Part shown: in pieces, positions 41,700 through 62,764 of the stretch
Position numbering within the stretch: the stretch's first letter is position 1
Layout: every line of letters begins with the position of its first letter
Origin: Quadrisphaera setariae
GTDB lineage: Bacteria; Actinomycetota; Actinomycetes; Actinomycetales; Quadrisphaeraceae
NCBI RefSeq assembly: GCF_008041935.1
Contig: NZ_VKAC01000003.1
Location: 62,001-126,000 of the forward strand
Direction: 5' to 3'
DNA length: 64,000 nt
Position numbers and translations under genes: made by a program
Notes under the pieces: generated by a model
Seen by the model: only the letters and a program-made list of their open reading frames with translations
Databases searched by the model: none
Told to the model about the DNA's origin: nothing

Positions 41700-41724
41700 G
41701 CCCTCGATCCTGCCGGGGAGCCGG

Positions 41725-43133: not shown

Positions 43134-43140
43134 GCCGGTG

Positions 43141-43192
43141 ACCGTAGGGCCGCCGAGCACGACGCACCCGCACCCGCTTCCGGCCAGCGGAA
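43141..43192. promoter_or_regulatory. pcaH promoter with IclR-type operator
   Basis: Minus-strand -10 box TACGGT at 43146-43141 and palindrome TTCCG-GCCAG-CGGAA at 43178-43192 (8 further bases are symmetric as CTTCCG/CGGAAG). The same 15-bp palindrome precedes pobA and vanA. It also lies 66 bases from the divergent IclR start, so it may serve both directions. Confidence 0.65.
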
Positions 43193-43258
43193 GTCCCTTC
43201 GGGTGGTCGCCACCACCCCGCACTCCCGCCGCGGCCCCGCCGGCGCCAGACTCGCCCC

Positions 43259-44056: not shown

Positions 44057-44065
44057 GCGCGGGGC

Positions 44066-44080
44066 TTCCGCCCAGCGGAA
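44066..44080. promoter_or_regulatory. IclR-type operator before pobA
   Basis: TTCCG-CCCAG-CGGAA, 43 bases before the pobA ATG, between the IclR stop and the pobA start. It differs from the pcaH site by one base. Confidence 0.65.
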
Positions 44081-44123
44081 CCCCCGTGTTGGTGATCGCG
44101 GTGGCGCGGCGTTCCATGGGCGC

Positions 44124-45335: not shown

Positions 45336-46099
45336 GCGAGGCCCTGGCTGAGCCGGTGGGCGTGGTCGAGCAGCAGCCGGCCCAGCACCCGGCGGCGCTC
45401 CGGGCCGAAGCGCGTCTCCACACCGGTGAGGCTGAGCGCACCGCTCGGCTCGCCGGTGTGGTCGAACACGGCCGCGCCCATGCCCCAGCTGCCCTCCACG
45501 AGCAGAGCGGGGTTGGTGGCGTACCCGTCGGTGCGGGTCTGCCGCAGCCGCTCGCGCAGGGCCGCGTCGCCGTGCGCCTCGCCCCAGGCGGCGGTCAGGT
45601 CGTGGGCGGTCAGGTAGCGCTCGGCCTCGGCGGTGGGCAGGTGCGCGAGGATCGCCAGCCCCGCGGAGGCCACCCCGAGCGGAAAGCGGACACCCTCGTG
45701 CAGCACGAAGGAGCGCAGCGGGAAGCTGCCCTCCTCGCGCAGCAGGCACACGGTCTCGTCGCCGCGGCGCACGGAGTAGAACGCGCTCTCGCCGGTGGCT
45801 CCCGCCAGTGACCTCACGACGTCGCGGGCCAGGGCCGTGACGTCGTAGCGGCGCGCGGCGACGGCGCCCAGCAGGTAGGTCTCCGGCCCGAGCAGCCAGC
45901 GCCCGGTGGTGGTCGGTCGGTCGAGGAGCCCGTCGCGCGCCAGCGCGCTGGCGATGCGGTGCGCGGTGGACCTGTTGATGCCCGTCGCCGCGGCGAGCTC
46001 GGTGGTGGTGAGCCCCTCGGCGGGGGCGCGGCCCACGGCCCGCAGCACCGCGCTGGCGCGGCTCACCGCCTGGTCACCACCCGTCGCCGTCGTGTTCAC
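45302..46099 (-). CDS. IclR-family regulator of the ScoAB/thiolase operon
   Basis: 265 residues. GTG 46099 lies seven bases after TACCGT (46112-46107), so the transcript is probably leaderless. Winged-helix start (QAVSRASAVLRAVGRAPAEGLTTTELAAATGINRSTAHRIASAL) and IclR effector domain (FPLGVASAGLAILAHL, GAAVFDHTGEPSGALSLTGVE). Divergent from the CoA-transferase genes. A perfect palindrome covers its own -10 region and start, implying autorepression. Confidence 0.9.
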   Translation of the reverse strand: MNTTATGGDQAVSRASAVLRAVGRAPAEGLTTTELAAATGINRSTAHRIASALARDGLLDRPTTTGRWLLGPETYLLGAVAARRYDVTALARDVVRSLAGATGESAFYSVRRGDETVCLLREEGSFPLRSFVLHEGVRFPLGVASAGLAILAHLPTAEAERYLTAHDLTAAWGEAHGDAALRERLRQTRTDGYATNPALLVEGSWGMGAAVFDHTGEPSGALSLTGVETRFGPERRRVLGRLLLDHAHRLSQGLAQRAARSGQPV

Positions 46100-46108
46100 T
46101 TGGTGAAC
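46094..46108. promoter_or_regulatory. Perfect palindrome over the IclR -10 box and start codon
   Basis: GTTCAC-TTG-GTGAAC. The palindrome contains the whole 7-base gap between the regulator's -10 box (TACCGT) and its GTG and overlaps both. It differs from the TTCCG-N5-CGGAA sites, suggesting a different binding specificity for this IclR. Confidence 0.65.
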
Positions 46109-46164
46109 GGTAGCGAGGTCGATGTGCACGTGCTGACCGATCTCACCCGTGATCGCCCGACCGC

Positions 46165-46194
46165 TTGCCGTGCCGAGGGAGGCGTTCGTAGCGT
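46165..46194 (+). promoter_or_regulatory. Promoter of the scoA-scoB-thiolase operon
   Basis: TTGCCG (46165-46170), 18-base spacer, TAGCGT (46189-46194), 83 bases before the GTG. Lies 57 bases from the IclR palindrome, so a repressor bound there may or may not reach it. Confidence 0.5.
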
Positions 46195-46276
46195 GCGGGA
46201 GCGGAGCGACGCAGCCGTCCACCTGGTGGTCGTGCTGCGCCGCACAGATGCGACGCCGAGCACGAGGGAGTGGCTT

Positions 46277-46993
46277 GTGGCACTGGAGCGCTGCGCCAGC
46301 GCGCGCGAGGCCCTCGAGGGAGTGGTCCACGACGGGATGACCGTGGCGGTCGGCGGGTTCGGCCTGTCCGGCATCCCCACCAACCTCATCCGCGCGCTGC
46401 GCGACACCGGGGTGCGCGACCTCACCGTCGTCTCCAACAACATGGGGGTGGACGGCAAGGGGCTCGGCCTGCTGCTGGAGGCAGGGCAGGTGCGCAAGGT
46501 CCTGTCCAGCTACGTGGGGGAGAACAGGCTGTTCGCGCAGCAGTACCTCTCCGGCGAGCTGGAGGTCGAGTTCGTCCCGCAGGGCACCCTCGCCGAGCGG
46601 CTGCGCGCCGGTGGCGCCGGCATCCCCGCGTTCTACACGGCCACCGGGTACGGCACCGAGGTGGCCGAGGGCAAGCCCACCGCGGAGTTCGACGGCGTGC
46701 ACGCCGTGCTGGAGCGCGGCATCGTCGCCGACCTCGCCCTGATCCGCGCCCACACCGCTGACCCCGCCGGGAACCTCCGCTACCGCCTGGCCGCCCGCAA
46801 CTTCAACCCGCTCGTGGCCACCGCGGGCCGCGTGACCGTCGTGGAGGCCGAGCACCTGCTCGAGACGTTCCTCGACCCCGACGACGTCGTCACGCCCGGC
46901 GTCTTCGTGCAGCGCCTCGTGCAGGTCGAGGACACGACCAAGGACGTCGAGCAGCGCACGGTCCGCCCGCGCCGGGAAGAAGGAGCCGCCTGA
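46277..46993 (+). CDS. scoA: 3-oxoacid CoA-transferase, subunit A (SCOT type)
   Basis: 238 residues from GTG 46277 with GGGAG six bases upstream. [67 protein letters not shown]: the succinyl-CoA:acetoacetate type (ScoA), unlike PcaI at 36 kb, which has the SFPRQ motif. Partner ScoB follows on TGATG. Probably acts on acetoacetate or a similar 3-oxo acid from another aromatic route. Confidence 0.92.
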
Positions 46994-47670
46994 TGTGGAC
47001 CCGTGACGAGATGGCCGCCATCGCCGCCGAGGAGCTGGAGGACGGCGCGTACGCCAACCTCGGCATCGGCATCCCCACCCTGGTGGCCAACCACCTGCCA
47101 CCCGGGGTGCACGTGACCTTGCAGAGCGAGAACGGCCTGCTCGGCATGGGCCCGTTCCCGTACGAGGGCGAGGAGGACGCCGACCTCATCAACGCCGGCA
47201 AGCAGACCGTCACGCTGCTGCCGGGCGCCGCCGTCTTCGACTCCGCGACGTCGTTCGGGATGATCCGCGGCGGCCACATCGGCGTCGCCGTCCTCGGGGC
47301 CCTGCAGGTCTCCGGCTCCGGCGACCTCGCCAACTGGCAGGTGCCCGGAAAGGTGGTCAAGGGCATGGGAGGGGCGATGGACCTCGTGGCGGGCACGCCC
47401 CGCGTCGTCGTCCTCACCGAGCACGTCGCCAGGGACGGCTCGCCGAAGGTGGTCGAGCGGTGCACGCTGCCGCTGACCGGGGTCGGTGTGGTGGACCGGA
47501 TCATCACCGACCGCGCGGTCTTCGACGTCGTCGACGTCGTCGACGACGGCGGGCGCCTCGTCCTGCGCCGCCTGGCGCCCGGGCAGGACCTGGAGGAGCT
47601 GCGCTCCCTCACGGGCGCGCCCTTCACCGCCGACCTGGACGGCAGTGCGCTCGAGGGGGCCGTGCGATGA
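46993..47670 (+). CDS. scoB: 3-oxoacid CoA-transferase, subunit B (SCOT type)
   Basis: 225 residues; ATG 46993 shares one base with the scoA stop. [14 protein letters not shown], catalytic [43 protein letters not shown] and MGGAMDLV are ScoB features. Completes the transferase. The thiolase follows with an ATGA overlap. Confidence 0.93.
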
Positions 47671-48848
47671 GCGGCTCGCGCTCCGCCGTCGTCGTCGGGT
47701 ACGCCCGCACGCCGTTCGTCAGGTACTGCGGCCGCTTCGCCGCCGTGCCCGCCGTCGACCTGGGGGCGCACGCGATCCGCGCGGCGCTCGCCCGCGCCGG
47801 TGTCGAGGCGGCCGACGTGCAGCGCGTGCTCGGCGGCCACGTGCTGCAGGGCGGGGCCGGGCAGAACCCCGCCCGCCAGGCGGCCGTGGCTGCCGGGATC
47901 CCGCTGACCACCCCGGCGAGCACGCTCAACGCCGTCTGCCTGTCGGGCGTGCAGGCCGTGGCCGACGGCGCTGCGCTCATCGAGGGCGGGCGCGTCGACG
48001 TCGTCGTCGCGTTCGGGATGGAGTCGATGAGCCTGGCGCCGCACGTCGCGCCGATGCGCTCAGGGCAGCGGTACGGGGCGCTGGAGCTGGTGGACACCCT
48101 CGAGCACGACGGTCTCACCGACGCCACCGAGCGCCGCTCGATGGGCGCGTCGACCGAGGCCCGCAACGCCGGGCTGGGGCTGGCGCGGGCCGAGCAGGAC
48201 GCGTGGGCCGCCGCCAGCCACCGGCGCGCCGCGGCGTCGGAGCAGTGGCTGGCGGGAGAGGTCGAGCCGTTCGCGGTCCCGACGCGCAAGGGCACCGAGC
48301 TGGTGACCTCCGACGACGGCGTCCGCCCTGACACCACCGCGGAGGGCCTCGCGCGGCTGCGCCCCGCGTTCTCCGCTGACGGAGGCATCACCGCCGGCAA
48401 CGCCTCGCAGGTCACGGACGGTGCAGCGGCGCTCGTGCTGACCAGCGCCCGGTGGGCGGCGGCCCGGGGGCTCGCGCCGCTGGCGGAGGTGCTGGCGACG
48501 TCGTTCGTGGCGGGGCCCGACGTCTCGTTGCACGCCCAGCCCGCAGCGGCCGTCGAACGGGTGCTGGCCGAGGTGGGTGCCTCGGCGCACGAGCTGGCGA
48601 GCCTGGAGGTGAACGAGGCGTTCGCCGCGGTGGCCGTGCACTCCACGCGGCTGCTCGGGGTGGATCCCGAACGCGTCAACCCTCACGGCGGCGCCATCGC
48701 GCTGGGGCACCCGCTGGGTGCGTCCGGGGCGCGGATCGTCGGGACGCTGGCGCGCACGCTGGTGGACGTCGGCGCGGGGAGCCTCGGAGCGGCCGCGCTC
48801 TGCGGGGGAGGCGGGCAGGGCGCCGCCGTCCTCCTGCGCTCCCTCTGA
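47667..48848 (+). CDS. Acetyl-CoA C-acetyltransferase (thiolase)
   Basis: 393 residues, ATG 47667 overlapping the scoB stop. Nucleophilic Cys in [39 protein letters not shown], and second Cys in [12 protein letters not shown]. Lacks the PcaF-specific GCANQAGEDNRNV block, so it is the acetoacetyl-CoA type. With ScoAB it would convert acetoacetate to two acetyl-CoA. A long hairpin follows the stop. Confidence 0.92.
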
Positions 48849-48914: not shown

Positions 48915-50420
48915 TCAGAGGGGGTACTGGCCCGGCTCGCGGCGCAGGGTGATCCAGCGGGTCTCGGTGAACGCCTCCACGTTCGCCTGCGCCCCGCCGT
49001 GGCGCGATCCCGTGCCGGAGGCGCCGACGCCGCCGAACGGGGTGTTGGCCTCGTCGTTCACCGTCTGGTCGTTGATGTGCACGATGCCGGTGGGGATGCG
49101 CCGGGCCAGGTCCAGCGCCCCGAGCGCGTCCTTGCTGACGATGCCCAGCGACAGCCCGTACTCGGTGGCCGAGGCCAGCTCCACCGCCTCGTCGTCGGTC
49201 GCGTACGACACCACCGACGCCACCGGCCCGAAGACCTCCTCGCAGTACGCCTGGGCGTCCTTCGGGGTGTGCGCCAGCACGGTGGGGCGGTAGAAGAGCC
49301 CCTCGTAGGTGCCGCCGGCGCGCAGCTGCGCGCCCTGGGCGACGGCGTCCTGCACGAGCGAGTGCACGCGGTCGCGCTGGACCTCGTCGATGAGCGGGCC
49401 GAGGTGCACCTGCCCGGCGGCCGGGTCACCCACGTGCATCGAGTCGGCCTTGGCAGCGAGCTTCTCGACGTACTCGTCGAAGACCGACTCGTGCACGATG
49501 TGGCGCCCCACGGTCATGCAGATCTGGCCCTGGTGGAGGAACGAGCCCCACGTGGCGAGGTTGACGGCCTTGTCGACGTCGGCGTCCTCGCGCACGAGGA
49601 AGGCGCTGTTGCCGCCCAGCTCCAGGTGCGCGCGCTTGAGGTGGCGCCCGGCGAGCTCGCCCACGGCGCGCCCGGCGCGGGTGGAGCCGGTGAACGCGAT
49701 GACGCGCACGCGGGGGTCGGTGACGAGCGCCTCGCCGACGTCGGCGCCACCGGGCACCAGCTGCAGCAGGCCCGGGGGCAGGCCCGCCTCCTCGAAGATG
49801 CGCACGAACGCCACCCCGCCGGTCATGACGGTGCGGGGGTCGGGCTTGAGCAGCACGGCGTTGCCCAGGGCGAGGGCCGGGGCGACGGCGCGGATGCCGA
49901 GGATGAGCGGCACGTTGAACGGGGAGATGACGCCGACCACGCCCACCGGAACCTGCTCGGCCAGGGACAGGCGCGGCTGCTCGCTGGACAGCACCGTGCC
50001 CAGCGGCGCCGAGGGCAGCGAGGCCGCCTCGTAGCACTCGGCGGCGGTGACGTGCAGGGCGAAGCCGGCCAGCGGCGGGATGGCGCCGACCTCGCGGATG
50101 TTCCAGCCCATGACCTCCTCGGCGTGCTGCTCCCACAGCTGCCCGGCACGGCGCAGGACGGCGGCGCGCTCCGGGTGCGAGGTGGCGGCCCACGCCTTCT
50201 GGGCGCGGGCGGCGCCCTCGGCGGCGCGGGCGACGTCGTCAGGACCGGCGATGCCGACCGTGGCGATGGTCTCGCCGCTGGCGGGCGCCAGGGAGGCGAG
50301 CGTCGAGGCTCCCTGCACCCAGCGGCCGTCGATGAAGATCTTCCCGCTGACGGCCGCCTCGTCGATGAGGCTCCCCGTGGGGGCGGGCGTGGTGGTGCTG
50401 GTGTGGGCGGTGGCGGTCAT
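48915..50420 (-). CDS. Benzaldehyde/vanillin-type aldehyde dehydrogenase
   Basis: 501 residues, ATG 50420 overlapping the upstream stop (ATGA), AGGAGG seven bases before it. NAD site FTGSTRAGRAVGE, general base LELGGNS, nucleophile GQICMTVGRHIVHE. The VISPFNVPLILGIRAVAPALALGNAVLLKPDP pattern and FLHQGQICMTVGR resemble benzaldehyde and vanillin dehydrogenases rather than betaine or lactaldehyde ones. Last gene of the nine-gene operon; would oxidise an aromatic aldehyde to the acid (vanillate, 4-hydroxybenzoate). Confidence 0.88.
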   Translation of the reverse strand: MTATAHTSTTTPAPTGSLIDEAAVSGKIFIDGRWVQGASTLASLAPASGETIATVGIAGPDDVARAAEGAARAQKAWAATSHPERAAVLRRAGQLWEQHAEEVMGWNIREVGAIPPLAGFALHVTAAECYEAASLPSAPLGTVLSSEQPRLSLAEQVPVGVVGVISPFNVPLILGIRAVAPALALGNAVLLKPDPRTVMTGGVAFVRIFEEAGLPPGLLQLVPGGADVGEALVTDPRVRVIAFTGSTRAGRAVGELAGRHLKRAHLELGGNSAFLVREDADVDKAVNLATWGSFLHQGQICMTVGRHIVHESVFDEYVEKLAAKADSMHVGDPAAGQVHLGPLIDEVQRDRVHSLVQDAVAQGAQLRAGGTYEGLFYRPTVLAHTPKDAQAYCEEVFGPVASVVSYATDDEAVELASATEYGLSLGIVSKDALGALDLARRIPTGIVHINDQTVNDEANTPFGGVGASGTGSRHGGAQANVEAFTETRWITLRREPGQYPL

Positions 50421-51331
50421 CGTCGAACCTCCTGCTGGGTCGGGACTGCCGGGTGGAGCTGTCGGGTGCTGGCCGCGTGGTGCACCAGCTGGAACGCGCG
50501 CTCGGCCAGACCGAGCCCGTCGTCGTACGGCGAGCGCCAGATGGCCAGCGCGTCGGCGACGGCGCCCGGCATCAGCGCACGGGAGAAGGCTTCCACGCCC
50601 ACGCGCCCGGTGTACCCCCCGGCCAGGGCCGACCGGAGGACCCCGGCCACGTCCACCGCTCCGGTGCCGAGGTCACCGCGCCCCGACTGCCCCAGCTCCA
50701 GGTAGCGCAGGTGGGGCAGCGCCGTGAGCACGGCGCCGGGGAGGTCGGCCTCCTCGATCCCCATGTGGAACGTGTCGAGGTGGATGCCCAGGTGGTCCGA
50801 GCCGCTCGCCTCCACGTACCGCACCGCCTGGGCGGCGGTGTTGACCAGGCCCTCCTCGTAGCGGTTGAGCACCTCGAAGGTGAGCTGGACGCCGCGGCCC
50901 GCCGCCAGGTCGGCCACCTCGCCGACGACCCGCGCGCTGCGCTCGAACGCGGCGGGGTCCGGAGCTGCGGCCGGCTTGCCGAACAGCCCGTAGGGGACGC
51001 CGTTGAGCTGGTCCGCGCCCACCGCGACGGCGAGGTCCACCGCCGCGAGGAGCGCCGCGCGCCCGGCGGCGCGCTCGTCGTCGTCGTCCGAGGAGACGTC
51101 CTGGCCGGGGGCGAGGCCGACCATGGCGATCGGCGCCAGGTCCGCCCGCTCGAAGGCCGTCCGCAGCGACGCGGCGTCGGTGTCCGCCGGCACGAGCGGG
51201 GGCAGCACCGCCCGCCGGTACCCGATCTCGCGCAGCCGCAGGAGCACGGGTGCCAGTGCGTCGCCCTCGGGCGCCACCGGGAGGGCTGCGGTGTGGAAGG
51301 CGAGGTCGGGCCCGTCCGCCGCGGAGGACAC
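50417..51331 (-). CDS. TIM-barrel sugar isomerase/epimerase
   Basis: 304 residues from GTG 51331, GAGG eight bases upstream. Xylose-isomerase-like fold: LTFEVLNRYEEGLVNTAAQA (Glu), LGIHLDTFHMGIEEAD (Asp, His), LGQSGRGDLGTG and VGVEAFSR (last Glu). The metal-ligand set of the ketose 3-epimerase/isomerase group is complete. Nine bases after the SDR stop on the same strand. In the proposed arylglycerol route it would interconvert the keto forms; in a sugar route it is a ketose epimerase. Confidence 0.85.
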   Translation of the reverse strand: MSSAADGPDLAFHTAALPVAPEGDALAPVLLRLREIGYRRAVLPPLVPADTDAASLRTAFERADLAPIAMVGLAPGQDVSSDDDDERAAGRAALLAAVDLAVAVGADQLNGVPYGLFGKPAAAPDPAAFERSARVVGEVADLAAGRGVQLTFEVLNRYEEGLVNTAAQAVRYVEASGSDHLGIHLDTFHMGIEEADLPGAVLTALPHLRYLELGQSGRGDLGTGAVDVAGVLRSALAGGYTGRVGVEAFSRALMPGAVADALAIWRSPYDDGLGLAERAFQLVHHAASTRQLHPAVPTQQEVRR

Positions 51332-51339
51332 GCCAGGCC

Positions 51340-52122
51340 TCAGAACGTCGGCAGGTCGAAGCGCTGCTTGAAGACGGAGTAGCCGTCGTCGCAGCTCACG
51401 ACCGTGCCGTTGATGACGTTCGACGCGTCCGAGGCGAGGAACGCGACGACGTCGGCGACCTCCTCGGGCTGCGTCATCGTGTTGCGCAGCAGCTCGGAGG
51501 CGAACAGCGCCCGCAGCTCGGGGCTGAACTGGTTGATGATCGGCGTCGCCACGCGGCCCGGGGTGATGGCGACCACGCGGGTGCCCTGGTGGGCCAGCTC
51601 GTACGCCGCGGAGCGCGTGAAGGAGATGACGGCGGCCTTCGCCGCGCTGTAGGTGAAGGCCAGCTCCGCCGCCTGCTCCCCGTAGATGGAGGAGGTGTTG
51701 ATGATGACGCCGCCACCGCCCTGGGCCCGGAACTGCCGGCCGGCGGCGAGGATGCCGTAGTACACGCCGTCCTGGTCGACGCGGATCATCGGGGCGTAGT
51801 CGACCGCGGGGTCGTGCTCGAGCAGCGGCTTGCCGCCGGCGATGCCGGCGTTGTTGAACATCACGTCGAGGCGCCCGAAGCGGTCGACCGCGGCGGCGAC
51901 GGCGGCCTCGACCTGCTCGAAGACGGACACGTCGACGCCCACGGACGCGACCGACCCCGGGGTCCCCTCGTCGGCGACCTCCTCGGCGGCGGCCTTGGCG
52001 CGGACCTCGTCCACGTCGGCGACCACCACCTTGGCGCCCTGCCGCAGGAACGCGCGGACCGTCGCCAGCCCGATGCCGCCGGCACCCCCGGTGACCAGGG
52101 CGACCTTGTTCTCGAGTGTCAT
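51340..52122 (-). CDS. Short-chain dehydrogenase/reductase
   Basis: 260 residues. ATG 52122 is chosen over ATG 52128 because AGGAG lies six bases upstream of it only. VTGGAGGIGLATVR (Rossmann), NNAGIAGG, catalytic Ser in INTSSIYGE and YSAAKAA (YxxxK). Classical NAD(P)-dependent alcohol dehydrogenase; acceptance of sugar alcohol or arylglycerol cannot be judged. Follows an intra-operon hairpin. Confidence 0.93.
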   Translation of the reverse strand: MTLENKVALVTGGAGGIGLATVRAFLRQGAKVVVADVDEVRAKAAAEEVADEGTPGSVASVGVDVSVFEQVEAAVAAAVDRFGRLDVMFNNAGIAGGKPLLEHDPAVDYAPMIRVDQDGVYYGILAAGRQFRAQGGGGVIINTSSIYGEQAAELAFTYSAAKAAVISFTRSAAYELAHQGTRVVAITPGRVATPIINQFSPELRALFASELLRNTMTQPEEVADVVAFLASDASNVINGTVVSCDDGYSVFKQRFDLPTF

Positions 52123-52153
52123 GCTCATCTCCTCTGTGGAGACGTCCGGCGCC

Positions 52154-52186
52154 CGGCCGGGCGGGACGGGAGGCCCCGCCCGGCCG
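52154..52186 (-). terminator. Strong intra-operon hairpin between binding-protein and SDR genes
   Basis: CGGCCGGGCGGG (52154-52165) pairs perfectly with CCCGCCCGGCCG (52175-52186), 9-base loop, starting 13 bases after the binding-protein stop. Such hairpins often protect the highly translated binding-protein mRNA and attenuate downstream genes. Confidence 0.6.
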
Positions 52187-52198
52187 AGCGCGAGGGCG

Positions 52199-53200
52199 TC
52201 AGCTGCCGAGCTTGTCCGACGGGGTGATCGAGGCGGCGTTGTCCTTGGTCACCAGCGTGGTGGCCACCGCGTCGAAGTTCTTCGACGGCTTGGTGCCGTC
52301 CTTCTGGTAGGCCGTGATCGCGTCCTCCACGGTCTTGTTCACCGTCAGCCACGGCTGCTCGACGGTGGCCACCAGCGGGCTGCTCCCCGACTGGATGGCG
52401 GCGAGGGCCTCGCTGGAGGCGTCACAGCCGGTGACGATGGCCTTCGAGCCGGACTCGCTCACGCCCTGGGCGGCGCCGAGCGCGGCGTCGTCCCAGCCGA
52501 CCCAGACGGCGTCCAGGCCGTTCGGGTTGGCCGTGAGGTAGTCGCTGACGAGGGCGAGCGCCTCGGTGCGGCCCGTGGCCGGGGACTTCACCTTCTGGAT
52601 GGCCCCGCCGGCGATGTTCGCGCCCGCCTTCTTCAGCTCGGCCTCGGCCAGGCTGGCGCGCATCCGGATGCCGGGGTGCGGGTCGTGGCCGATGACCATG
52701 ACGTTCTTGCCCTGCAGGCCGCCCAGCTGCGTGCTGATCTCCTGCACGGTCTGGTCGGCGATGCCCTGCTGGTTCGAGGTCACGTTCAGCGCGAAGGCGT
52801 CGTTCGCCTCGGTGCCGGCGTCCACCGCGAAGATCGGGATGTCGGAGTCCTTGGCCGCGGTGACGATGGAGCTGATCGAGGCGACGTCGGTGTAGCCGTC
52901 GAAGATGGCGTCGGCGCCCTGCCCGATGGCGCTCTCCACCTGCGGGTTCATCTTCTGGAAGTCGAAGTCGCCCTGGATCATGGTCAGGTCCCAGCCGTTG
53001 GTCTTGGCGTCGGCCTGGACCTGCTTGACCCACCAGGCGCCGATGGGGGTCTGGTTGCCCGAGGTGAAGGCGATGACCTTGAAGGGCTTGCCGCCGTCGC
53101 CCTCGCCGCTGCCTGCGGCCTGGCCGCTGCCGCCGCACCCGGACAGGACGGTGGCCGCGGCGATGGCAGCTGCGGCGAGTGCGGTGAACCTCATGCGCAT
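52199..53200 (-). CDS. Sugar ABC transporter substrate-binding lipoprotein (CUT2 type)
   Basis: 333 residues from ATG 53200, AAGGAG five bases upstream. Signal peptide FTALAAAAIAAATVLSGC with lipobox LSGC (Cys anchor), then a periplasmic-binding-protein domain starting FKVIAFTSGNQTPIGAWWVKQV. The ribose/rhizopine-binding group, taking up sugars or polyols. With the permease and ATPase forms an RbsABC-like importer. A hairpin GGGCGC-CGCA-GCGCCC (53279-53294) lies upstream. Confidence 0.93.
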   Translation of the reverse strand: MRMRFTALAAAAIAAATVLSGCGGSGQAAGSGEGDGGKPFKVIAFTSGNQTPIGAWWVKQVQADAKTNGWDLTMIQGDFDFQKMNPQVESAIGQGADAIFDGYTDVASISSIVTAAKDSDIPIFAVDAGTEANDAFALNVTSNQQGIADQTVQEISTQLGGLQGKNVMVIGHDPHPGIRMRASLAEAELKKAGANIAGGAIQKVKSPATGRTEALALVSDYLTANPNGLDAVWVGWDDAALGAAQGVSESGSKAIVTGCDASSEALAAIQSGSSPLVATVEQPWLTVNKTVEDAITAYQKDGTKPSKNFDAVATTLVTKDNAASITPSDKLGS

Positions 53201-53316
53201 GGTGACTCCTTCGTCAGTGCGTGGAAGACCTGCCCCGCGGCGGACGCCGCGCGGCTGAGGACGTGTGGGGGACCGGCTGGGCGCCGCAGCGCCCGCGGGG
53301 GTGGTGATGGAGGTGG

Positions 53317-54317
53317 TCAGCGGCTCCGCGTCTTCAGCGACGAGAGCGTGACGGCCGCGATGATGATGATCCCGGTGACCACCTGCTGGACGTAGGAGTT
53401 CACGCCCAGGATGTTGAGGCCGTTGCTCATCACCCCGATGATCGCGACCCCGATGACCGTGCCGCCGAGGTTGGCCGCCCCGGAGCGGATGACGGTCATG
53501 CCGAGGAAGACGGCGGCCACGGAGAACATGAGGTTGTCGCTGCCCTGCACGGCGCTCGACGAGCCGAGCCGGGCGGCGAGCAGCACGCCGCCGATGCCGG
53601 CCACGAGGCCGGCGACGGTGAAGGCGAGGAGCCGCGAGCGGCGCACGGAGATGCCGGACAGCCGCGCCACCTCCACGTTGCCGCCGATGGCGTACCAGCT
53701 GCGGCCGGTGGTGGTGAAGCGCAGCACGGCCCACGCCACGAGGGCGATGAGGACGGCGAGGTAGACGGGCATCGGGATGTTGAACAGGCGGCCCTGGCCG
53801 AGCTGCGTGAAGCCGGCCGGGAAGTTGAACAGCGTGGTGCCCTCGGTGACGAGGTAGGCCGCGCCGACGATCGAGGTCATCGACGCCAGCGTCGCCACGA
53901 AGGCGGACAGGTTGAGGTAGGCGACCAGCAGGCCGTTCACCAGCCCGATGGCCAGTCCCACCGCGACCGCGGCGACCACCGCGACGGTCACGGACTGGCC
54001 CGCGGTGAGCAGCGCGCCCGCCACCGACCCGGCGAGGCTGGACGTCGCCGCCACCGACAGGTCGAAGTCTCCGACCACCATGACGACGGTCTGGGCCACG
54101 GCGATGATCGCCAGGATCGACACCTGGTAGAGGATGTTGCGGACGTTGGTGAAGGTGAGGAAGACGTCCGGCCTCATCGCGAAGAAGAACAGGACCAGCA
54201 CGACCAGGGCGAGCACGGTGCCGCCCGAGAGGGCGCGCTGGCCGAGGGACCTGCGGGGCACGGCGAGCACCCCTGCCGAGGTGTCCTCGATCCCCGGGTT
54301 GCGGGTGGGGGTGGCGG

Positions 54318-54321
<4 letters not shown>
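53317..54321 (-). CDS. Sugar ABC transporter permease (RbsC-like)
   Basis: 334 residues, ATG 54321 overlapping the ATPase stop (ATGA). About eight to ten helices; conserved LNLSAFVATLASMTSIVGAAYLVTEGTTLF and the C-terminal GSSSAVQGSDNLMFSVAAVFLGMT of the CUT2 permease family. Membrane channel of the importer. Confidence 0.93.
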
Positions 54322-55903
<1,582 letters not shown>

Positions 55904-55907
<4 letters not shown>

Positions 55908-56965
55908 ACCAGCTCCTCGACGTCGTTGCAGCGGATGACGACCTTGGGGAACCTGCCCGACAGGTGGACCTCGAAGGCCTCCTCGGCGTCCTCGAGGTCG
56001 ACCACGGCCTGGGTGAACTCCTCGAGCTGCAGGTGGGGGAGCAGCTGCAGCGCGCGGGGGAAGGCGTACGGGGAGACGAACAGGCCCGTCAGGGTCAGCT
56101 CGCGCAGGTAGAGGTACTCGGACAGGTCGAGCGGCAGCTCGTAGCCGGTCGGGTACATCGCCCCGTAGACGACGGTCCCGCCCTTCGCGGCGATGTCGAG
56201 CAGGCCCCGGGTCGCGCGGGTCGAGCCCGAGGCGTCGATGACGACGTCGTAGCCGCGCCCCTGCGTGATCTCCATCGCGCGCTGGCCCTGGTCGTCGCTG
56301 ACCGGGTCGATGACGTGCTCGGCGTCGCAGCGCTGCGCGAGCGCTCGGCGCTCCGCGATGGGCTCGATCATCGTGAGCGAGGTGGCGCCGTACCGGCGCA
56401 TGACCTGCAGCGCCAGCTGCCCGATGGGGCCGCCGCCGCAGACCGCCACGCGGTCGCCGACGCGGATCCTCGTCTTGTCGGCGATGCGCACCGCCACCGA
56501 GACCGGCTCCAGCAGGCAGCCCTGGAGCAGGGAGACGGCGTCGGGCAGCTTGTAGACCTGCGACTCGTGCCAGGTCACCGTCTCGGACATGCCGGGGCGG
56601 TTGTAGTCCTGGATGTGCTCGCAGAACTGCTGCCTGCCCTCCTGGCAGGGCCGGCAGGTGCCGCAGAAGCGCAGGAAGTTGCCGGCGACGCGGTCGCCGA
56701 CGCGCAGCCCGTTCCGCGTGGCGCGCTCGCCCAGCGCCTCCACGACGCCGGACACCTCGTGGCCGAGGCCGATCGGCACGTCCGTGCCGAAGAAGCCCTC
56801 GGCCAGGTGCGGGTCGGAGCCGCAGATCGCCGCGTACGCCACGCGGATGCGGACGTCCTCCGGGCCCAGCGGCTGGTCGGGGAAGTCGACCACGCCGATG
56901 CGGCCGCGGGCGCCGGCATCGGCGGCCCTGAGGCTGCCGATCTTCGTGACGGCGACGGTCCTCAC
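55904..56965 (-). CDS. Zinc-dependent alcohol dehydrogenase (sorbitol/threonine DH type)
   Basis: 353 residues from GTG 56965, overlapping the transketolase stop. Catalytic zinc: CGSDPH and GHEVSGVVEA; structural zinc cysteines in CGTCRPCQEGRQQFC; NAD fold VAVCGGGPIGQLALQV. Medium-chain reductase of the polyol/threonine group. In a polyol or arylglycerol pathway it would oxidise a secondary alcohol to a ketone. Confidence 0.93.
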
Positions 56966-57927
56966 GGCCGGGCTGCCAGGACCCGCCGCGTGGCGGCGAC
57001 CGTGGCGGACAGCCCGTAGCCGTGCTTGTCGCGCAGCTGCTCGTCGTCGCCGAAGCCGGCGTACACCTGCGGGATGCCGAGGCGCTCGAAGGCGGTCAGG
57101 TGGATGCCGCGGTCGGCGACGACGTCGGCCACCCGCGTGGCCAGCCCGCCGTAGGCGAGGTGGTCCTCGAGCACCACGAACCGGCCGCCGGTCTCCTCGG
57201 CGCACTGGGCGATCAGGTCGGCGTCGATCGGCTTGAGGGTGAACATGTCCACCACGCGGACCGAGCGGCCGTCCTCGGCGAGGGCCTCAGCGGCCTGGAG
57301 GGCCTGGGCCACCGTGGTGCCGTGGGTGAAGATCGTGGCGTCGGTGCCCCGGCGGGCCACGATGCCCTTGCCGATGCGGATGTCGTGCTCGCCGGGCTCG
57401 TAGAGCACGACGTCCTTCTTGCCGACGGCGAGGCGGATGTAGATGGGGCCCTGCATCGCCATCGACTGGCGGATGACCTCGCCGACCATGAGCGGGTCGC
57501 CGATGGAGGTGACGGTCATGTTGGTGAGCGCGCACATGAGGGCGAGGTCCTCGACGGCGTAGTGCGTGGAGCCGCCGTTGCCGACCAGTCCGCCGTGCGT
57601 ACCGATGATCTTGACGGGGAGGTTGGGGTAGCAGACGTCGGTGCGCACCTGCTCCAGCGCCCGCATGCTGAGGAAGGGGAGCATCCCGGAGACGACGGGG
57701 ATGTTGCCGTCGTAGGCGAGGCCGGCGGCGATGCCGACGCAGACCTGCTCGGCCAGGCCGACGTCGAGGAACCGGTCCGGGTACTTGTCCCGGAACTCCA
57801 CGAGGGTCGCCCCGATGTCGGGGGTCAGCACCCACAGGTTCTCGTGGGTCTCGCCGAGCTCGGCGAGGGTCGACCCGATGACGGAGCGGGCCGACAGCAT
57901 CTCGCCGAAGGTGAAGGTGACGGGCAT
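56962..57927 (-). CDS. Transketolase-like protein, C-terminal half (split subunit)
   Basis: 321 residues, ATG 57927 sharing a base with the previous stop. GLAEQVCVGIAAGLAYDG carries the Glu that activates the thiamine ring; IIGTHGGLVGNGGSTHYAVEDLALM binds the pyrimidine/substrate side; C-terminal transketolase domain follows. Together with the next gene it makes a complete thiamine-diphosphate enzyme, in two chains as in the archaeal/actinobacterial split type. Acts on a ketose or hydroxyketone, moving a C2 unit. Confidence 0.9.
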   Translation of the reverse strand: MPVTFTFGEMLSARSVIGSTLAELGETHENLWVLTPDIGATLVEFRDKYPDRFLDVGLAEQVCVGIAAGLAYDGNIPVVSGMLPFLSMRALEQVRTDVCYPNLPVKIIGTHGGLVGNGGSTHYAVEDLALMCALTNMTVTSIGDPLMVGEVIRQSMAMQGPIYIRLAVGKKDVVLYEPGEHDIRIGKGIVARRGTDATIFTHGTTVAQALQAAEALAEDGRSVRVVDMFTLKPIDADLIAQCAEETGGRFVVLEDHLAYGGLATRVADVVADRGIHLTAFERLGIPQVYAGFGDDEQLRDKHGYGLSATVAATRRVLAARP

Positions 57928-58832
57928 CAGACGTTCTCCTTCGCGGCGCGGGTGGAGGTGCCGCGCGAGGCGGCGTAGGCGGTGTTGAGCGCGGTGAGCG
58001 CCCGCTCCAGGTCGGCCTTGCCGAGGGAGCCGGCGTGCCAGGCGAGGTTGCGCTCCATGAAGTCGACGCCCTTGCCCTTGACCGTCTCGGCGATGACCAC
58101 GGTGGGGCGGTCGCTGCTGGGCGCAGGCAGCTCGTCGACGGCGCGGACCAGAGCGGCCATGTCGTGGCCGTCCACGTGCACGACGTTCCAGCCGAAGGCG
58201 GCCCACTTGTCGGGGTACGGCTCGAAGACCACGCGCTCCTCGGCCATGCTCGTCATGAGCTGGCGGTTGCGGTCGACGAACGCCACCAGGTTGCCCAGCT
58301 TGTTGCTGCGGGCGGCCATCGCGGCCTCCCACACCGAGCCCTCGCCGGTCTCGCCGTCTCCCAGCAGGCAGAAGACCCGGTGCTGCTCGCCGCGGCCGCG
58401 TGCGCTCAGCGCCATGCCGACGGCCAGCGGAAGGCCGTGCCCGAGGGATCCCGTGGAGGCCTCCACGCCGGGCAGCTGCACCTTGCACGGGTGCATGCCG
58501 TAGGCGCTGTCGAGCTGGCCGTAGCTGTCGACGATGCCCTCGTAGGAGAAGAAGCCCCGGATGGCCATCGCGATGTACATGCACACCGCGGCGTGGCCCT
58601 TGCTCAGCACGAACCTGTCGCGCTGCGGGTTGGCGATGTCGTCGGGGTCGACGCTCATGCCGTACTCGAAGAGGACGGTGAGGATGTCGGCGGCGGACAG
58701 GTCGCCGCCGATGTGCACGGCCCCCTCGTAGGTGCCGCACAGCTCGAGCAGCTTGGTGCGCAGCTCGTGGGAGAGGTCCTCGAGCTCGGCGACGCTGAGC
58801 TCTCGGGCAGCCGTCAGGGGTTGGGCGGTCAT
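57927..58832 (-). CDS. Transketolase-like protein, N-terminal half (split subunit)
   Basis: 301 residues from ATG 58832, GAGGAG seven bases upstream. GGDLSAADILTVLFEYGM, DRFVLSKGHAAVCMYIAM with the diphosphate-binding His, GSLGHGLPLAVGMAL, and the TPP motif GDGETGEGSVWEAAMAARSN...DRN (GDG-x-N). First gene of the nine-gene operon; promoter and operator lie upstream. No kinase accompanies it, which is unusual for sugar-phosphate transketolases. Confidence 0.9.
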   Translation of the reverse strand: MTAQPLTAARELSVAELEDLSHELRTKLLELCGTYEGAVHIGGDLSAADILTVLFEYGMSVDPDDIANPQRDRFVLSKGHAAVCMYIAMAIRGFFSYEGIVDSYGQLDSAYGMHPCKVQLPGVEASTGSLGHGLPLAVGMALSARGRGEQHRVFCLLGDGETGEGSVWEAAMAARSNKLGNLVAFVDRNRQLMTSMAEERVVFEPYPDKWAAFGWNVVHVDGHDMAALVRAVDELPAPSSDRPTVVIAETVKGKGVDFMERNLAWHAGSLGKADLERALTALNTAYAASRGTSTRAAKENV

Positions 58833-58975: not shown

Positions 58976-59005
58976 AACGTAACAGCCGGCGGGTTGACAT
59001 GTAAA
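58976..59005 (-). promoter_or_regulatory. Operon promoter with TTGACATGTAAA operator over its -35 box
   Basis: Minus strand: TTTACA (59005-59000), 18-base spacer, TACGTT (58981-58976). The imperfect palindrome TTGACATGTAAA (58994-59005 on plus) covers the -35 box. A similar palindrome TTCACATGTCAA precedes the aldehyde dehydrogenase at 62.8 kb in the same relation to its -35 box. A second palindrome AACAA-C-TTGTT lies at 59017-59027. Confidence 0.55.
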
Positions 59006-59077
59006 CACCGTCATGGAACAACTTGTTGGGTCGTCGACGAGGATGGCGGCACGGGGCCGCAAGGGTGCACGCCCTCT

Positions 59078-59129: not shown

Positions 59130-59726
59130 ATGACCAGCGCGCACGAGTGGCCCAACGGCGGTCGCGCCGCCGAGGACATCGTCACCGAGCCCCTGAGCAC
59201 GCGGATCGACCTTGAGGAGTTCACCCCGCGCCTGGTCTACCTGGTCTCCAACGCGCTGGTGTGGCAGGAGTCGCACGAGATGCGCCGCCGCTTCGGCCTG
59301 GGCACCAACGACTGGCGCGTCATCTCCGCGCTGGGCTGGCGCCCCGGGCTGTCGGCCACCGAGGTCGCGGCCTTCCTGGGCGTCAACAAGGCCGTGGTGT
59401 CCAAGAGCGTCGCCGTGCTGGTCGACCGCGCGCTCGTGGCCCTGCTGCAGGGGCCGCGCGGATCGCGGCCGATGTACCTCACCCGCGCCGGGGCGCAGAT
59501 GCACGACCAGATGGTCCCCGTCTCGAGCCGGGGCCACGAGCTCATCACCACGGGCCTCGAGCCCGAGCAGGTCGCGCGGCTCAACGAGCTGCTGCGCGAG
59601 ATGCTCGGCCAGCTGCGCGGCCAGAGCGTCGAGGGGGACGGCGCCGTCCCCGTCGGCGACATCGTCCAGCCGCCCGTGCGCCTCGAGCCGCGGCGCCGCA
59701 ACGACGAGGTGCCCGGAGAGCCGTGA
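59130..59726 (+). CDS. MarR-family regulator
   Basis: 198 residues from ATG 59130, GAGG about six bases upstream. Winged-helix core: VYLVSNALVWQESHEMRRRFGLGTNDWRVISALGWRPGLSATEVAAFLGVNKAVVSKSVAVLVDRALV with the wing GPRGSRPMYL. MarR proteins in aromatic clusters typically sense phenolic acids. Divergent from the transketolase operon (298 bases apart) and coupled (GTGA) to the IclR gene; it is the likely binder of the TTGACATGT-type sites. Confidence 0.85.
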   Translation: MTSAHEWPNGGRAAEDIVTEPLSTRIDLEEFTPRLVYLVSNALVWQESHEMRRRFGLGTNDWRVISALGWRPGLSATEVAAFLGVNKAVVSKSVAVLVDRALVALLQGPRGSRPMYLTRAGAQMHDQMVPVSSRGHELITTGLEPEQVARLNELLREMLGQLRGQSVEGDGAVPVGDIVQPPVRLEPRRRNDEVPGEP

Positions 59727-60478
59727 CCCTCACCACCCGCACCCTCGCCGTCCTCAGCGCCTTCACCGCGCGCCACCCGCGGCTGCGGCTGGCCGAGGTG
59801 GCCGTGGCCAGCGGGCTGCCGCTCACCACGGCCCACCGCATCGTCAACGACCTCGTGGCCTGGGGCGCGCTGGAGCGCTCCTCCGACGGCACCCTCTCGG
59901 TGGGACTGCGCCTGTGGGAGCTCGCCTCCCTGGCGCCGCGCGGACCCGAGCTGCGCGAGGTGGCGCTGCCGTTCCTCGAGGACCTCTACACCGCCACGCG
60001 GGAGAACGTCCAGCTGGCCGTCCGCGAGGACCTGGAGAGCGTGTTCGTCGAGCGGCTCACCGGCCCGGACTCCGTGGGCGTGATGACGCGCGTCGGCGCA
60101 CGCTTCCCGCTGCCGTCCACGGGGGTGGGTCGCGTGCTGCTCGCGCACGCCCCCGCCGCGGTGCAGGAGGCGGCGCTCGCCGTGCCCCTGCGCCGGTGGA
60201 CCGAGCGCACCGAGACCGACCCCGAGCGCCTGCGCGCGCTGCTCGCCGAGGTGCGCCGGACCGGGGTCGCCTTCAGCGACCAGCAGGTCACCGACGGAGC
60301 GGCGTCGGTGGCGGCGCCGGTGCGCCGCGGTCGCGGGGAGGTGGTGGCCGCCGTGTCGGTGGTCTACAGCACCGCCCGCACCACCGCGGCACCCCTCGTG
60401 CCGGCCGTGCGGGCCGCCGCGCTGGGCATCTCCCGCGCTCTCGCCGCCCGCGCGGACGCGCACCACTCACCGCGCTGA
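59723..60478 (+). CDS. IclR-family regulator of vanAB
   Basis: 251 residues, GTG 59723 overlapping the MarR stop. Winged helix (TLAVLSAFTARHPRLRLAEVAVASGLPLTTAHRIV) and effector domain (FPLPSTGVGRVLLAHAP). Paralogue of the IclR at 43259. Located before vanA with a TTCCG-N5-CGGAA palindrome in between, so it likely controls vanAB in response to vanillate or protocatechuate. Confidence 0.9.
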   Translation: MTLTTRTLAVLSAFTARHPRLRLAEVAVASGLPLTTAHRIVNDLVAWGALERSSDGTLSVGLRLWELASLAPRGPELREVALPFLEDLYTATRENVQLAVREDLESVFVERLTGPDSVGVMTRVGARFPLPSTGVGRVLLAHAPAAVQEAALAVPLRRWTERTETDPERLRALLAEVRRTGVAFSDQQVTDGAASVAAPVRRGRGEVVAAVSVVYSTARTTAAPLVPAVRAAALGISRALAARADAHHSPR

Positions 60479-60584: not shown

Positions 60585-61688
60585 ATGACCGACGTGCAGG
60601 CAGAGCCGCTGGCCGCACCCGGGCAGGTCAACGCCAAGATCTTCCCGTTCCCCCTCAACGCCTGGTACGTCGCCGCGTGGGACCACGAGGTGACGTCCAA
60701 GAAGCCACTGGCGCGAACGGTCGCAGGGCAGCCGATGGCGCTCTACCGCACGGCCGACGGCCGCCCGGTGGCCCTCGCCGACGCCTGCTGGCACCGCCTG
60801 GCGCCGCTGTCGATGGGGAAGCTCGTCGGGCGCGACGGCATCCAGTGCCCGTACCACGGTCTGCAGTACAACTCCGCAGGTCGCTGCACCAAGATGCCCG
60901 CGCAGGAGACGGTCAACCCCAGCGCGCTGGTGACCTCCTACCCGGTGGAGCAGCGGTACCGCTACGTGTGGGTGTGGCCCGGAGACCCGCTCCTCGCGGA
61001 CCCGGCGTCCATCCCCGACATGCACCAGATGGACTCCCCGGAGTGGGCCGGGGACGGCCTCACCATCGAGGCGCCGTGCAACTACCAGCTGGTGCTCGAC
61101 AACCTCATGGACCTCACGCACGAGGAGTTCGTGCACCACTCGAGCATCGGCCAGGAGGAGCTGTCCGAGTCGGACTTCACCACCCGCCGCGAGGCCGACG
61201 GCTCGGTGACGGTGACGCGGTGGATCCGCGACGTGACGCCGCCGCCGTTCTGGCTGAAGAACATCCGCGACAGGTTCCCCGGCTTCGAGGGCCGCGTGGA
61301 CCGCTGGCAGATCATCCACTACTACGCCCCGTCGACCATCTGCATCGACGTGGGTGTCGCGCCCACCGGCACCGGCGCGCCCGAGGGCGACCGCAGCCAG
61401 GGCGTCAACGGGTACGTCATGAACACCATCACGCCCGAGACCGAGCGGTCCTCGCACTACTTCTGGGCGTTCATGCGCAACTACCGCCTCGACAGCCAGC
61501 TCATCACCACGCAGCTGCGCGAGGGCGTCCACGGCGTCTTCGGGGAGGACGAGGCGATGCTCGCCGCGCAGCAGCGCGCCATCGACGCCAACCCCGGCAA
61601 GGAGTTCTACTCCCTCAACATCGACGCCGGCGGCATGTGGGTGCGGCGCATCCTCGACGAGATGCTGCGCGCGGAGGGGCGCGCGTGA
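60585..61688 (+). CDS. vanA: Vanillate O-demethylase, oxygenase subunit
   Basis: 367 residues from ATG 60585, GAGGAG seven bases upstream. N-terminal Rieske centre CWHRLAPLSMGKLVG...CPYHGLQYN (C-x-H, C-x2-H); non-haem iron ligands DNLMDLTHEEFVHHSS (D-x2-H-x4-H). The PFPLNAWYVAAWDHEV head is typical of VanA-type aryl O-demethylases. Removes the methyl group of vanillate (or a similar methoxybenzoate) to protocatechuate and formaldehyde, using electrons from VanB, coded directly downstream. Confidence 0.93.
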   Translation: MTDVQAEPLAAPGQVNAKIFPFPLNAWYVAAWDHEVTSKKPLARTVAGQPMALYRTADGRPVALADACWHRLAPLSMGKLVGRDGIQCPYHGLQYNSAGRCTKMPAQETVNPSALVTSYPVEQRYRYVWVWPGDPLLADPASIPDMHQMDSPEWAGDGLTIEAPCNYQLVLDNLMDLTHEEFVHHSSIGQEELSESDFTTRREADGSVTVTRWIRDVTPPPFWLKNIRDRFPGFEGRVDRWQIIHYYAPSTICIDVGVAPTGTGAPEGDRSQGVNGYVMNTITPETERSSHYFWAFMRNYRLDSQLITTQLREGVHGVFGEDEAMLAAQQRAIDANPGKEFYSLNIDAGGMWVRRILDEMLRAEGRA

Positions 61689-62764
61689 GCGCACCCGCGC
61701 TCCCCGGGGCGGTCGGCCCTGCGGGGGCCACGACGACGGCGGTGCGGCCGGCGCGCGTCGTCGAGGCGCGCGACGTCGCCGACGGGGTGCGGCGCGTGGT
61801 CCTCGAGCACGCACCCGGCCGCCCCGCCGAGCCCGGCGCCCACCTGCAGCTGGTCGTCCACGTCGACGGGCCCGGCGGTCGGCGGAGGGAGGTGCGCTCG
61901 TACTCCGTGGTCGACGCCAGCCCCGACGGCACGCGCTCGGCGATCTCGGTGCTCCTCACCCCCACCTCGCGCGGCGGCGGCCGGTACGTGCACTCCCTCT
62001 CCGCCGGGGACGACGTCGAGTGCAGCGCGCCCCTCCAGGGGTTCCCGCTGCGCCTGGGCGCCGGGCGCTACCACCTGGTGGCCGGCGGCATCGGCATCAC
62101 CGCACTGGTGGCGATGGCCCGGCACCTGGCCGCGCGCGGCGCCGACGTGGTCCTGGACCACGTGGTGCGGACGCGCTCGCGGGCCGCGTACGCCGACGAC
62201 CTCGCCGCGCTGCTGGGGGACCGGTACCGGCTCCACGTCGACGACGAGCACGGCGCCTTCGACGTCGGCGCGCTGCTCGACGAGGTCGCTGCCGCCGACG
62301 GTGACGGGGAGGGGGCGGTGCCGGGCGGTGCTGAGGCGTACGTCTGCGGTCCGATCCGCCTCATGGACGCCGTGCGCCGCGGCTGGGAGGCCCGCGGCCT
62401 GCCGGCCAGCACGCTGCGGTTCGAGACGTTCGGCAGCTCCGGCTGGTACGCGCCGCAGCCCTTCACCGCCTGCATCCCCGAGATCGGGCTGCGCACGACC
62501 GTCGGCCCCGACACCACCCTGCTGGAGGCGCTGCAGCGCGCCGGCGCGGACCTCATGTACGACTGCCGCAAGGGCGAGTGCGGCCTGTGCCGCATCGACG
62601 TCGCCTCCGTGCGCGGCGTCCTCGACCACCGCGACGTCTTCCTCAGCCGCCGCCAGCAGGAGGCGGGAACGTCGATGTGCGTGTGCGTCTCGCGCGTCGC
62701 CGCCCTCCCCGCCGCTCAGGGCGGTGACGGCCAGCCCGCTGAGCTGGTGCTGCGCCTTCCGTAG
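61685..62764 (+). CDS. vanB: Vanillate O-demethylase, reductase subunit
   Basis: 359 residues, GTG 61685 overlapping the vanA stop. Three domains: FAD/FMN-binding (REVRSYSVVDAS), NAD-binding (GGIGITALVAM...YVCGPIRLMDAV), and C-terminal plant-type [2Fe-2S] ferredoxin with Cys in DCRKGECGLC and MCVC. Class IA phthalate-type reductase; feeds electrons to VanA. Confidence 0.93.
   Translation: MSAPALPGAVGPAGATTTAVRPARVVEARDVADGVRRVVLEHAPGRPAEPGAHLQLVVHVDGPGGRRREVRSYSVVDASPDGTRSAISVLLTPTSRGGGRYVHSLSAGDDVECSAPLQGFPLRLGAGRYHLVAGGIGITALVAMARHLAARGADVVLDHVVRTRSRAAYADDLAALLGDRYRLHVDDEHGAFDVGALLDEVAAADGDGEGAVPGGAEAYVCGPIRLMDAVRRGWEARGLPASTLRFETFGSSGWYAPQPFTACIPEIGLRTTVGPDTTLLEALQRAGADLMYDCRKGECGLCRIDVASVRGVLDHRDVFLSRRQQEAGTSMCVCVSRVAALPAAQGGDGQPAELVLRLP

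Follow-up and report, generated by a model that had tools for sequence, protein, structure and literature searches.

The apulose-4-phosphate transketolase AptAB is a split transketolase that belongs to a sugar catabolic gene set, the apiose pathway, whose operon encodes an apulose kinase, and the enzyme acts on the phosphorylated sugar after that kinase. A transketolase with a two-chain domain split is likewise represented by that of Carboxydothermus hydrogenoformans (6yak/6yaj; PMC7661550), for which the available part of the report mentions neither an operon nor an aromatic catabolic role. In the E. coli enzyme, according to the accessible sections of another report, S385 contacts phosphate, D469 and R91 form a salt bridge and the side chain of R520 is an obstacle in the funnel; the engineered variant S385Y/D469T/R520Q turns over benzaldehyde derivatives that the wild type does not act on (PMC5073344). 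Here, we analysed a window of 64,000 nucleotides from Quadrisphaera setariae (contig NZ_VKAC01000003.1, positions 62,001 to 126,000), whose minus strand carries a nine-gene operon, running from 58832 down to 48915, that encodes a natural split transketolase (TkA and TkB, together TkAB). This operon very probably has an aromatic role, and the best single account of it, which we regard as probable from sequence comparison, is that it would import and degrade a lignin-derived C6-C3 polyol, likeliest guaiacyl- and syringylglycerol, with transketolase cleaving the side chain. The computed support comprises gene content, conservation, retained catalytic histidines, an altered substrate-recognition site, aromatic aldehyde dehydrogenase kinship, co-occurrence with O-demethylases and a common operator.

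The preliminary description of this DNA had proposed a tight minus-strand operon of split transketolase, polyol-type dehydrogenase, CUT2 importer, SDR, TIM barrel and aldehyde dehydrogenase, an arrangement confirmed by open reading frames (ORFs), Pfam and NCBIfam; five of the eight joints overlap by 1-4 bp, the other three being gaps of 116, 70 and 8 bp. TkA (57927..58832, 301 aa) is the N-terminal half, binding thiamine diphosphate (PF00456, 1.1e-40; best PDB match the N-chain of 6yak), and TkB (56962..57927, 321 aa) the Pyr plus C-terminal half (PF02779, PF02780; best PDB match 6yaj), with the domains Transketolase_N in TkA and Transket_pyr and Transketolase_C in TkB all over the Pfam cut-off. 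They are followed by a zinc-dependent polyol-type dehydrogenase with a GTG start (ZnDH; 55904..56965, 353 aa; PF08240, PF00107), whose zinc ligands are present in 46/46 aligned rows and whose closest NCBIfam models, scyllo-inosose 3-dehydrogenase and threonine 3-dehydrogenase, both score far below cut-off. The CUT2 sugar ABC importer is complete, consisting of a double ATPase (54318..55907, 529 aa; PF00005, RbsA/AraG-like below cut-off), a BPD_transp_2 permease (53317..54321, 334 aa; PF02653) and a Peripla_BP_4 substrate-binding lipoprotein (52199..53200, 333 aa; PF13407). Downstream lie the SDR dehydrogenase (51340..52128, 262 aa; PF13561, 1.7e-52), the TIM barrel (EPI; 50417..51331, 304 aa; PF01261) and an aromatic-type aldehyde dehydrogenase (ALDHar; 48915..50420, 501 aa; PF00171). 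The benzaldehyde/vanillin type assigned earlier to the last of these agrees with its best PDB matches, mostly 4-hydroxybenzaldehyde, benzaldehyde, salicylaldehyde and vanillin dehydrogenases, and the catalytic-Cys motif G-Q-I-C-M occurs in 16/16 ALDHar rows. No kinase domain was found among the nine genes in the Pfam scan, and the operon is kinase-free, as had been stated.

A scan of a genome collection with TkB, from which the best 80 of 185 relatives were taken, gave 56 close relatives at 76-93% identity (loci L015-L070), the remaining 24 of the 80 lying at ≤39%; a Microbacterium scan added two further paralogues at 72% (G960, G897), after which identity drops from 72% to ~42%. The TkB tree separates the 57 family members from the rest by a 100/100 branch; their stem is long and carries a long-branch warning, and many inner forks are unresolved. 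The same gene order recurs in many of the 56 loci, and the operon is not a chance arrangement. Codon-usage gene calls with our own script, which also served for the carrier contigs of genomes G865 and G847 and for the island in the own genome, placed EPI in 47, TkA in 46, ZnDH in 45, MarR in 41 and SDR in 35 of these loci, many of whose contigs end early, and a plain ORF count found ZnDH, ABC ATPase, SDR and EPI together in 40/56. Members occur in Microbacterium, Agromyces, Naasia, Geodermatophilus, Sinomonas, Arthrobacter, Citricoccus and Aurantimicrobium, among others, and in a second Quadrisphaera genome (G101), whose TkB is 93% identical to that of the window; L048 carries a Gammaproteobacteria label and is perhaps mis-binned. 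The operon family is one of many soil actinobacteria and also of freshwater ones, with a patchy distribution: TkB matches were obtained in 8/297 genomes order-wide at 1e-60, four of them (own genome included) ≥86% identical, in 2/396 genomes phylum-wide at 1e-80 (own genome included), and in 50/315 Microbacterium genomes at 1e-100. Beside the family, L100 (G960) carries at about 8090-12145 the 72% TkB paralogue with ZnDH, SDR and EPI and no adjacent CUT2 importer.

Active-site residues were numbered after E. coli, read from Escherichia whittamii Tkt (L101), whose residues at 11 positions fit those we presume for the E. coli enzyme. Across 47 joined TkA+TkB rows, H66, H100, H261 and H473 are kept in all 47 and H26 in 45, with two gaps, and R358 and H461 are likewise kept in 47/47. 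The R520 place is occupied by Val in 57/57 family TkBs (47/47 joined rows) and by Arg in 28/28 other split transketolases, and both R91 and D469 are replaced by Gly in 47/47 joined rows; at the S385 place, 46/47 rows have Thr, in a gapped stretch of uncertain alignment. We take R520 to be a ligand of the substrate phosphate and assign R358, H461 and S385 to the phosphate site as well, so that the set R358/S385/H461/R520 of a sugar-phosphate transketolase (EC 2.2.1.1 type) is incomplete here through the loss of R520. Judged by alignment, the natural TkAB is altered at sites that laboratory evolution altered, D469 and R520 among them. Five further Transket_pyr genes lie elsewhere in the own genome, and an ordinary pentose-phosphate transketolase role for TkAB was rejected on account of these genes and of the lost R520-type Arg. 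Separately, the enterobacterial split transketolases at 31-37% identity (L077-L084, L086-L094) carry Asn where the E. coli enzyme has D469, and Arg where it has R520.

The genomic neighbourhood connects the operon to O-demethylation. Flank counts are minimum values, because contigs often stop early; they rest on clusters, and family models were applied to the cluster representatives only. The recurrent neighbour f11 belongs to the LigM family, its tested representative scoring 881 bits as a vanillate/3-O-methylgallate O-demethylase (NF047885, cut-off 580) and 733 bits against PDB 5x1i, with MetF- and PurU-like genes adjoining. In the flank retrieved, the LigM family lies near the operon in at least 12/56 loci, a VanA homologue in at least 4/56 and a 3-hydroxybenzoate-hydroxylase-like gene in at least 5/56 (representative 630 bits against 2dkh), and at least 26/56 loci show one of these, ALDHar or a PobA-like gene. 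VanA and LigM perform one and the same function without being related, and this speaks against hitch-hiking by chance.

Co-occurrence across genomes points the same way. Within Microbacterium, LigM (1e-100) was found in 48/50 operon carriers versus 40/265 non-carriers (Fisher p 1e-29, shared ancestry ignored), and LigM or VanA in 49/50 versus 60/265; among the matches listed, LigM lies ≤20 kb from TkB in at least 30/50 carriers (30/40 with LigM on the same contig), these distances being upper limits. The carrier G920, which lacks LigM, has VanA 71 kb away, while G847, lacking both, has CoA-transferase- and thiolase-like genes, a second aldehyde dehydrogenase (aldh8) and ALDHar on its operon contig; in G865, LigM stands beside CHA aldolase, oxalomesaconate tautomerase-like and extradiol dioxygenase genes. 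A second sample comprised 30 of the 56 loci, leaving out 21 Microbacterium-labelled loci and the metagenome loci L033, L048, L054, L055 and L065; at least three genomes are in both samples (L041/G926, L062/G707, L016/G899), all among 20 cases with the full operon, and the VanA threshold was 1e-60 here and 1e-80 in Microbacterium. LigM was present in 18 of these genomes, VanA in 7 (the L017 match consisting of two fragments) and either in 22, including 20/20 genomes whose locus has ZnDH, ABC, SDR and EPI. Of six Quadrisphaera genomes, the two with LigM over cut-off are both operon carriers, and the non-carrier G007 has a below-cut-off relative. The neighbours, the co-occurrence across genomes and the active site of the transketolase strongly support a link between the operon and methoxylated aromatics.

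Aldehyde oxidation may fall to one or both of two enzymes. The aldh8 gene occurs in at least 35/56 loci, in many relatives across an operator-bearing gap from TkA, and at least nine loci, together with the window region, have both ALDHar and aldh8; the local copy starts on the plus strand at 62863, runs past the window end at 64000 (L104:363-1859) and is 76% identical to the aldh8 family. This distribution bears on a variant compatible with transketolase cleavage, in which TkAB would act as a lyase and release glycolaldehyde instead of transferring the C2 unit, aldh8 then yielding glycolate. The R520 loss and the frequency of aldh8, including its company with ALDHar, would suit free glycolaldehyde; R358 and H461, however, which we place at the phosphate site, are kept in 47/47 rows, and together with phosphofructokinase neighbours in two loci they hint at sugar phosphates as the C2 acceptor, so that we consider release of glycolaldehyde rather doubtful.

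A palindromic operator, GTTTAC-N2-GTAAAC, provides a further common element. The window contains one copy with 1 mismatch at 58993..59006 (0.01 expected), and the palindrome sits between MarR, or aldh8, and TkA. Among regions before TkA, 36/47 match GTTTACATGTAAAC with ≤2 mismatches versus 0/47 shuffled regions, with one plain shuffle per region. When ≤2 mismatches to the N2 form are allowed, the 56 loci (1.0 Mb) yield 59 sites; 55 of these precede TkA, in 46 loci, and four lie elsewhere. A MarR match was found in 45/56 loci, every one with an operator site; L032 has a site and no MarR match on a contig that starts nearby, and the 10 loci without a site likewise lack a MarR match. From this pattern, the operator, newly recognised here, is a probable MarR site. 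In the stretches scanned, neither LigM nor VanA is preceded by an operator site, so the predicted regulon looks private to the operon and aldh8. L022, L054 and L056 each have three operator copies.

The TIM barrel, described earlier as an isomerase, keeps that fold and is best placed, by sequence, in the ketose 3-epimerase family: its nearest solved relatives are D-allulose and L-ribulose 3-epimerase (5zfs, 1e-42; 3vyl, 3.4e-40). Of the metal site, which we take to be Glu, Asp, His and Glu, the first Glu and the Asp are present in 48/48 rows and the last Glu in 47/48, with one metal-site His replaced by Glu in 48/48 rows; an active-site His is present in 48/48 rows. Seen as a ketose, HOCH2-CO-CH(OH)-Ar has its benzylic carbon at position C3, and a 3-epimerase acting there would make both configurations available to a stereoselective transketolase, which would also explain why EPI remains beside TkAB in loci that show no ZnDH; we put forward this stereochemical role as a new proposal.

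The same family assignment, with the importer, the polyol-type dehydrogenase and the fold of the binding protein, is sugar-like throughout and would also fit a sugar or polyol operon (apiose, a pentose or a tetritol) merely sited among aromatic genes, in which the TIM barrel would isomerise or epimerise and TkAB split a free ketose. The first PDB sequence matches of the binding protein are 4ry0 and 5ibq, the latter presumably an apiose complex, and phosphofructokinase adjoins the operon in 2/56 loci. Apulose, however, has no H at C3 available for epimerisation, loss of the R520-type Arg speaks against apulose 4-phosphate, ALDHar is of aromatic type, and across genera the operon goes together with LigM or VanA. 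Apiose was accordingly set aside as weakened, with neither a kinase in the operon nor an explanation for the demethylase association, and the apiose or pentose alternative named in the preliminary description is left as quite unlikely.

Seven loci (L050, L051, L055, L060, L064, L066 and L070) have EPI after TkB and no ZnDH in the available sequence, as if the ketone came ready-made. They raise the prospect of another methoxylated C6-C3 substrate. Candidates are arylglycerol glycoside aglycones and aryl hydroxyketones of the Hibbert or beta-hydroxypropiovanillone type; the dehydrogenases would then work at the alpha carbon, and TkAB would still cut an aryl ketol. All the aromatic evidence fits this equally well; nevertheless, two dehydrogenases and a polyol-type importer better suit a fully reduced polyol, and a transketolase donor must be a hydroxymethyl ketone with an adjacent carbinol, which makes such a substrate unlikely.

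Several observations weigh against the arylglycerol reading. Among the outgroup split transketolases, 26/28 have Asn at the R91 place and 23/28 at the D469 place; because these two positions are altered in most of them too, R520 to Val is, on present alignments, the clean separator of the family. The AlphaFold model of the binding protein (mean pLDDT 89.2) has mostly ordinary sugar binders as its nearest PDB folds, at 15-25% identity. A phosphofructokinase gene directly follows EPI in 2/56 loci (L022:19679-20707 and L056:17442-18470). ALDHar was detected in only at least 15/56 loci, aldh8 matches no specific family model, no vanillate-specific NCBIfam match was obtained for the VanA-type protein of the window, and 30/56 loci are without any aromatic marker in the retrieved flank. 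VanA alone is not enriched in the Microbacterium carriers (1/50 versus 20/265 others). Eight of the 30 sampled carriers (L030, L045, L050, L051, L059, L060, L066 and L070), all metagenome assemblies, lack both LigM and VanA, and the small-genome freshwater loci with TkA-TkB-EPI are mostly without either demethylase. In L030 and L045 the operon differs: its binding protein is divergent, it has additional Zn-dehydrogenases, and both SDR and EPI are missing (L030 with a LacI regulator and FAD/ETF genes, L045 resembling it in gene sizes); variants of the operon with other substrates may therefore exist. As a separate observation, the locus of the freshwater actinomycete Aurantimicrobium minutum (L056; genome ~1.7 Mb) contains the full operon together with PobA-like, ALDHar-like (56%), VanA/VanB-like and LigB genes within one 21-kb stretch.

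The surroundings of the operon in the window are aromatic on both sides, as had been described in placing it between pca/pob and van blocks. On one side lies a protocatechuate branch (37033..48848; NCBIfam, Pfam) with a pcaF-like gene, pcaDC, a lyase in the pcaB position, pcaGH, a PcaR/PobR-type regulator, pobA, a CoA-transferase and a thiolase. The other side, on the plus strand, carries a MarR-family regulator (59130..59726, alternative start 59013; PF12802), an IclR-family regulator (59723..60478; PF01614, PF09339), a predicted VanA-type Rieske O-demethylase oxygenase (60585..61688; PF19112, 6.6e-52, and PF00355) and a VanB-type ferredoxin reductase (61685..62764, start 61685 or 61742; PF00111, PF00175). 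The aromatic island continues beyond the window (L104:363-15323) with aldh8, a second MarR, MetF, LigM, PurU, LigA, LigB, a DesA-like gene and LigK, and includes genes resembling a sensor kinase and a response regulator, judged by eye. LigM of the own genome scores 858 bits, above the NF047885 cut-off, whereas LigA falls just short (108.1 bits against 108.6) and the DesA-like gene is also below cut-off. The own genome may thus carry both 3,4- and 4,5-cleavage routes, and since LigM, the DesA-like gene, LigAB and LigK lie past the window, guaiacyl and syringyl acids may each have an exit route.

Taken as arylglycerol degradation, the operon suggests the following route. The CUT2 system would take in the arylglycerol as a polyol, and ZnDH and SDR, one for each configuration, would oxidise the beta carbon to a 1-aryl-1,3-dihydroxyacetone. 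EPI would invert the benzylic carbinol, which is C3 of the 'ketose', bringing all stereoisomers to the form accepted by transketolase, and TkA with TkB would cut between C2 and C3 to release vanillin, syringaldehyde or 4-hydroxybenzaldehyde. The C2 unit held on thiamine diphosphate would pass to an acceptor, so that a sugar kinase would not be needed. ALDHar and/or aldh8 would oxidise the aromatic aldehyde to the acid, VanAB or LigM/DesA would demethylate the acid, and the products of pca or lig genes would open its ring. Formaldehyde was set aside as an acceptor of the C2 unit in general, since the operon is more often accompanied by LigM, which does not produce it; formaldehyde is therefore retained as a special case only.

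More specifically, and tentatively, as a possibility short of probable, the route could be stereoconvergent, two dehydrogenases and a 3-epimerase turning four stereoisomers into one aryl-dihydroxyacetone that a transketolase evolved away from sugar phosphates would cut, with the C2 unit passing straight into sugar phosphates or onto VanAB-derived formaldehyde to give dihydroxyacetone. If true, aromatic and central carbon metabolism would be joined in one thiamine diphosphate reaction. Of the arylglycerol-to-vanillate/pca reading first offered for this DNA, the link to methoxylated aromatics has been upheld by neighbours, co-occurrence and the transketolase site, while import, beta oxidation and transketolase cleavage are steps that we infer.

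A source for the proposed substrate is described in the available part of PMC4560021, where an extracellular fungal beta-etherase splits a beta-O-4 model dimer hydrolytically into guaiacylglycerol and guaiacol; this is the commonest lignin linkage, and since the enzyme is extracellular, the substrate can exist outside cells. The literature searched, with partial coverage of titles and abstract starts, contained no transketolase in arylglycerol or lignin-monomer breakdown, no bacterial guaiacylglycerol uptake pathway and no natural transketolase with an aromatic donor. The sphingomonad beta-aryl ether and aryl dimer pathways, so far as the accessible portions of PMC11837543 and PMC12997858 describe them, likewise convert lignin pieces to vanillate or syringate through stereospecific dehydrogenases and aromatic aldehyde dehydrogenases, but they use a different side-chain chemistry, and transketolase is mentioned 0 times in the main texts. 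The folate-dependent LigM/DesA O-demethylation modules, whose LigM members tested here as neighbours exceed the NF047885 cut-off, would work downstream of the operon and outside it.

Among the split transketolases, the C. hydrogenoformans enzyme shares the domain division and is the best PDB match for both halves, but in our alignment its residues corresponding to R520 and D469 are still Arg and Asp, unlike those of the family described here. AptAB is similar as a split transketolase in a catabolic gene set, yet the present operon has neither a kinase nor an R520-type Arg. If the arylglycerol reading is true, a classic enzyme has acquired a new job, it becomes clear what happens to an important lignin fragment in actinobacteria of soil and freshwater, and a gene set is at hand for use in lignin conversion. 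TkAB would then also be a natural counterpart to laboratory-evolved transketolases: the engineered E. coli enzyme is a variant made for synthesis with altered substrate-recognition residues, whereas TkAB has D469 to Gly, R520 to Val and R91 to Gly by nature.

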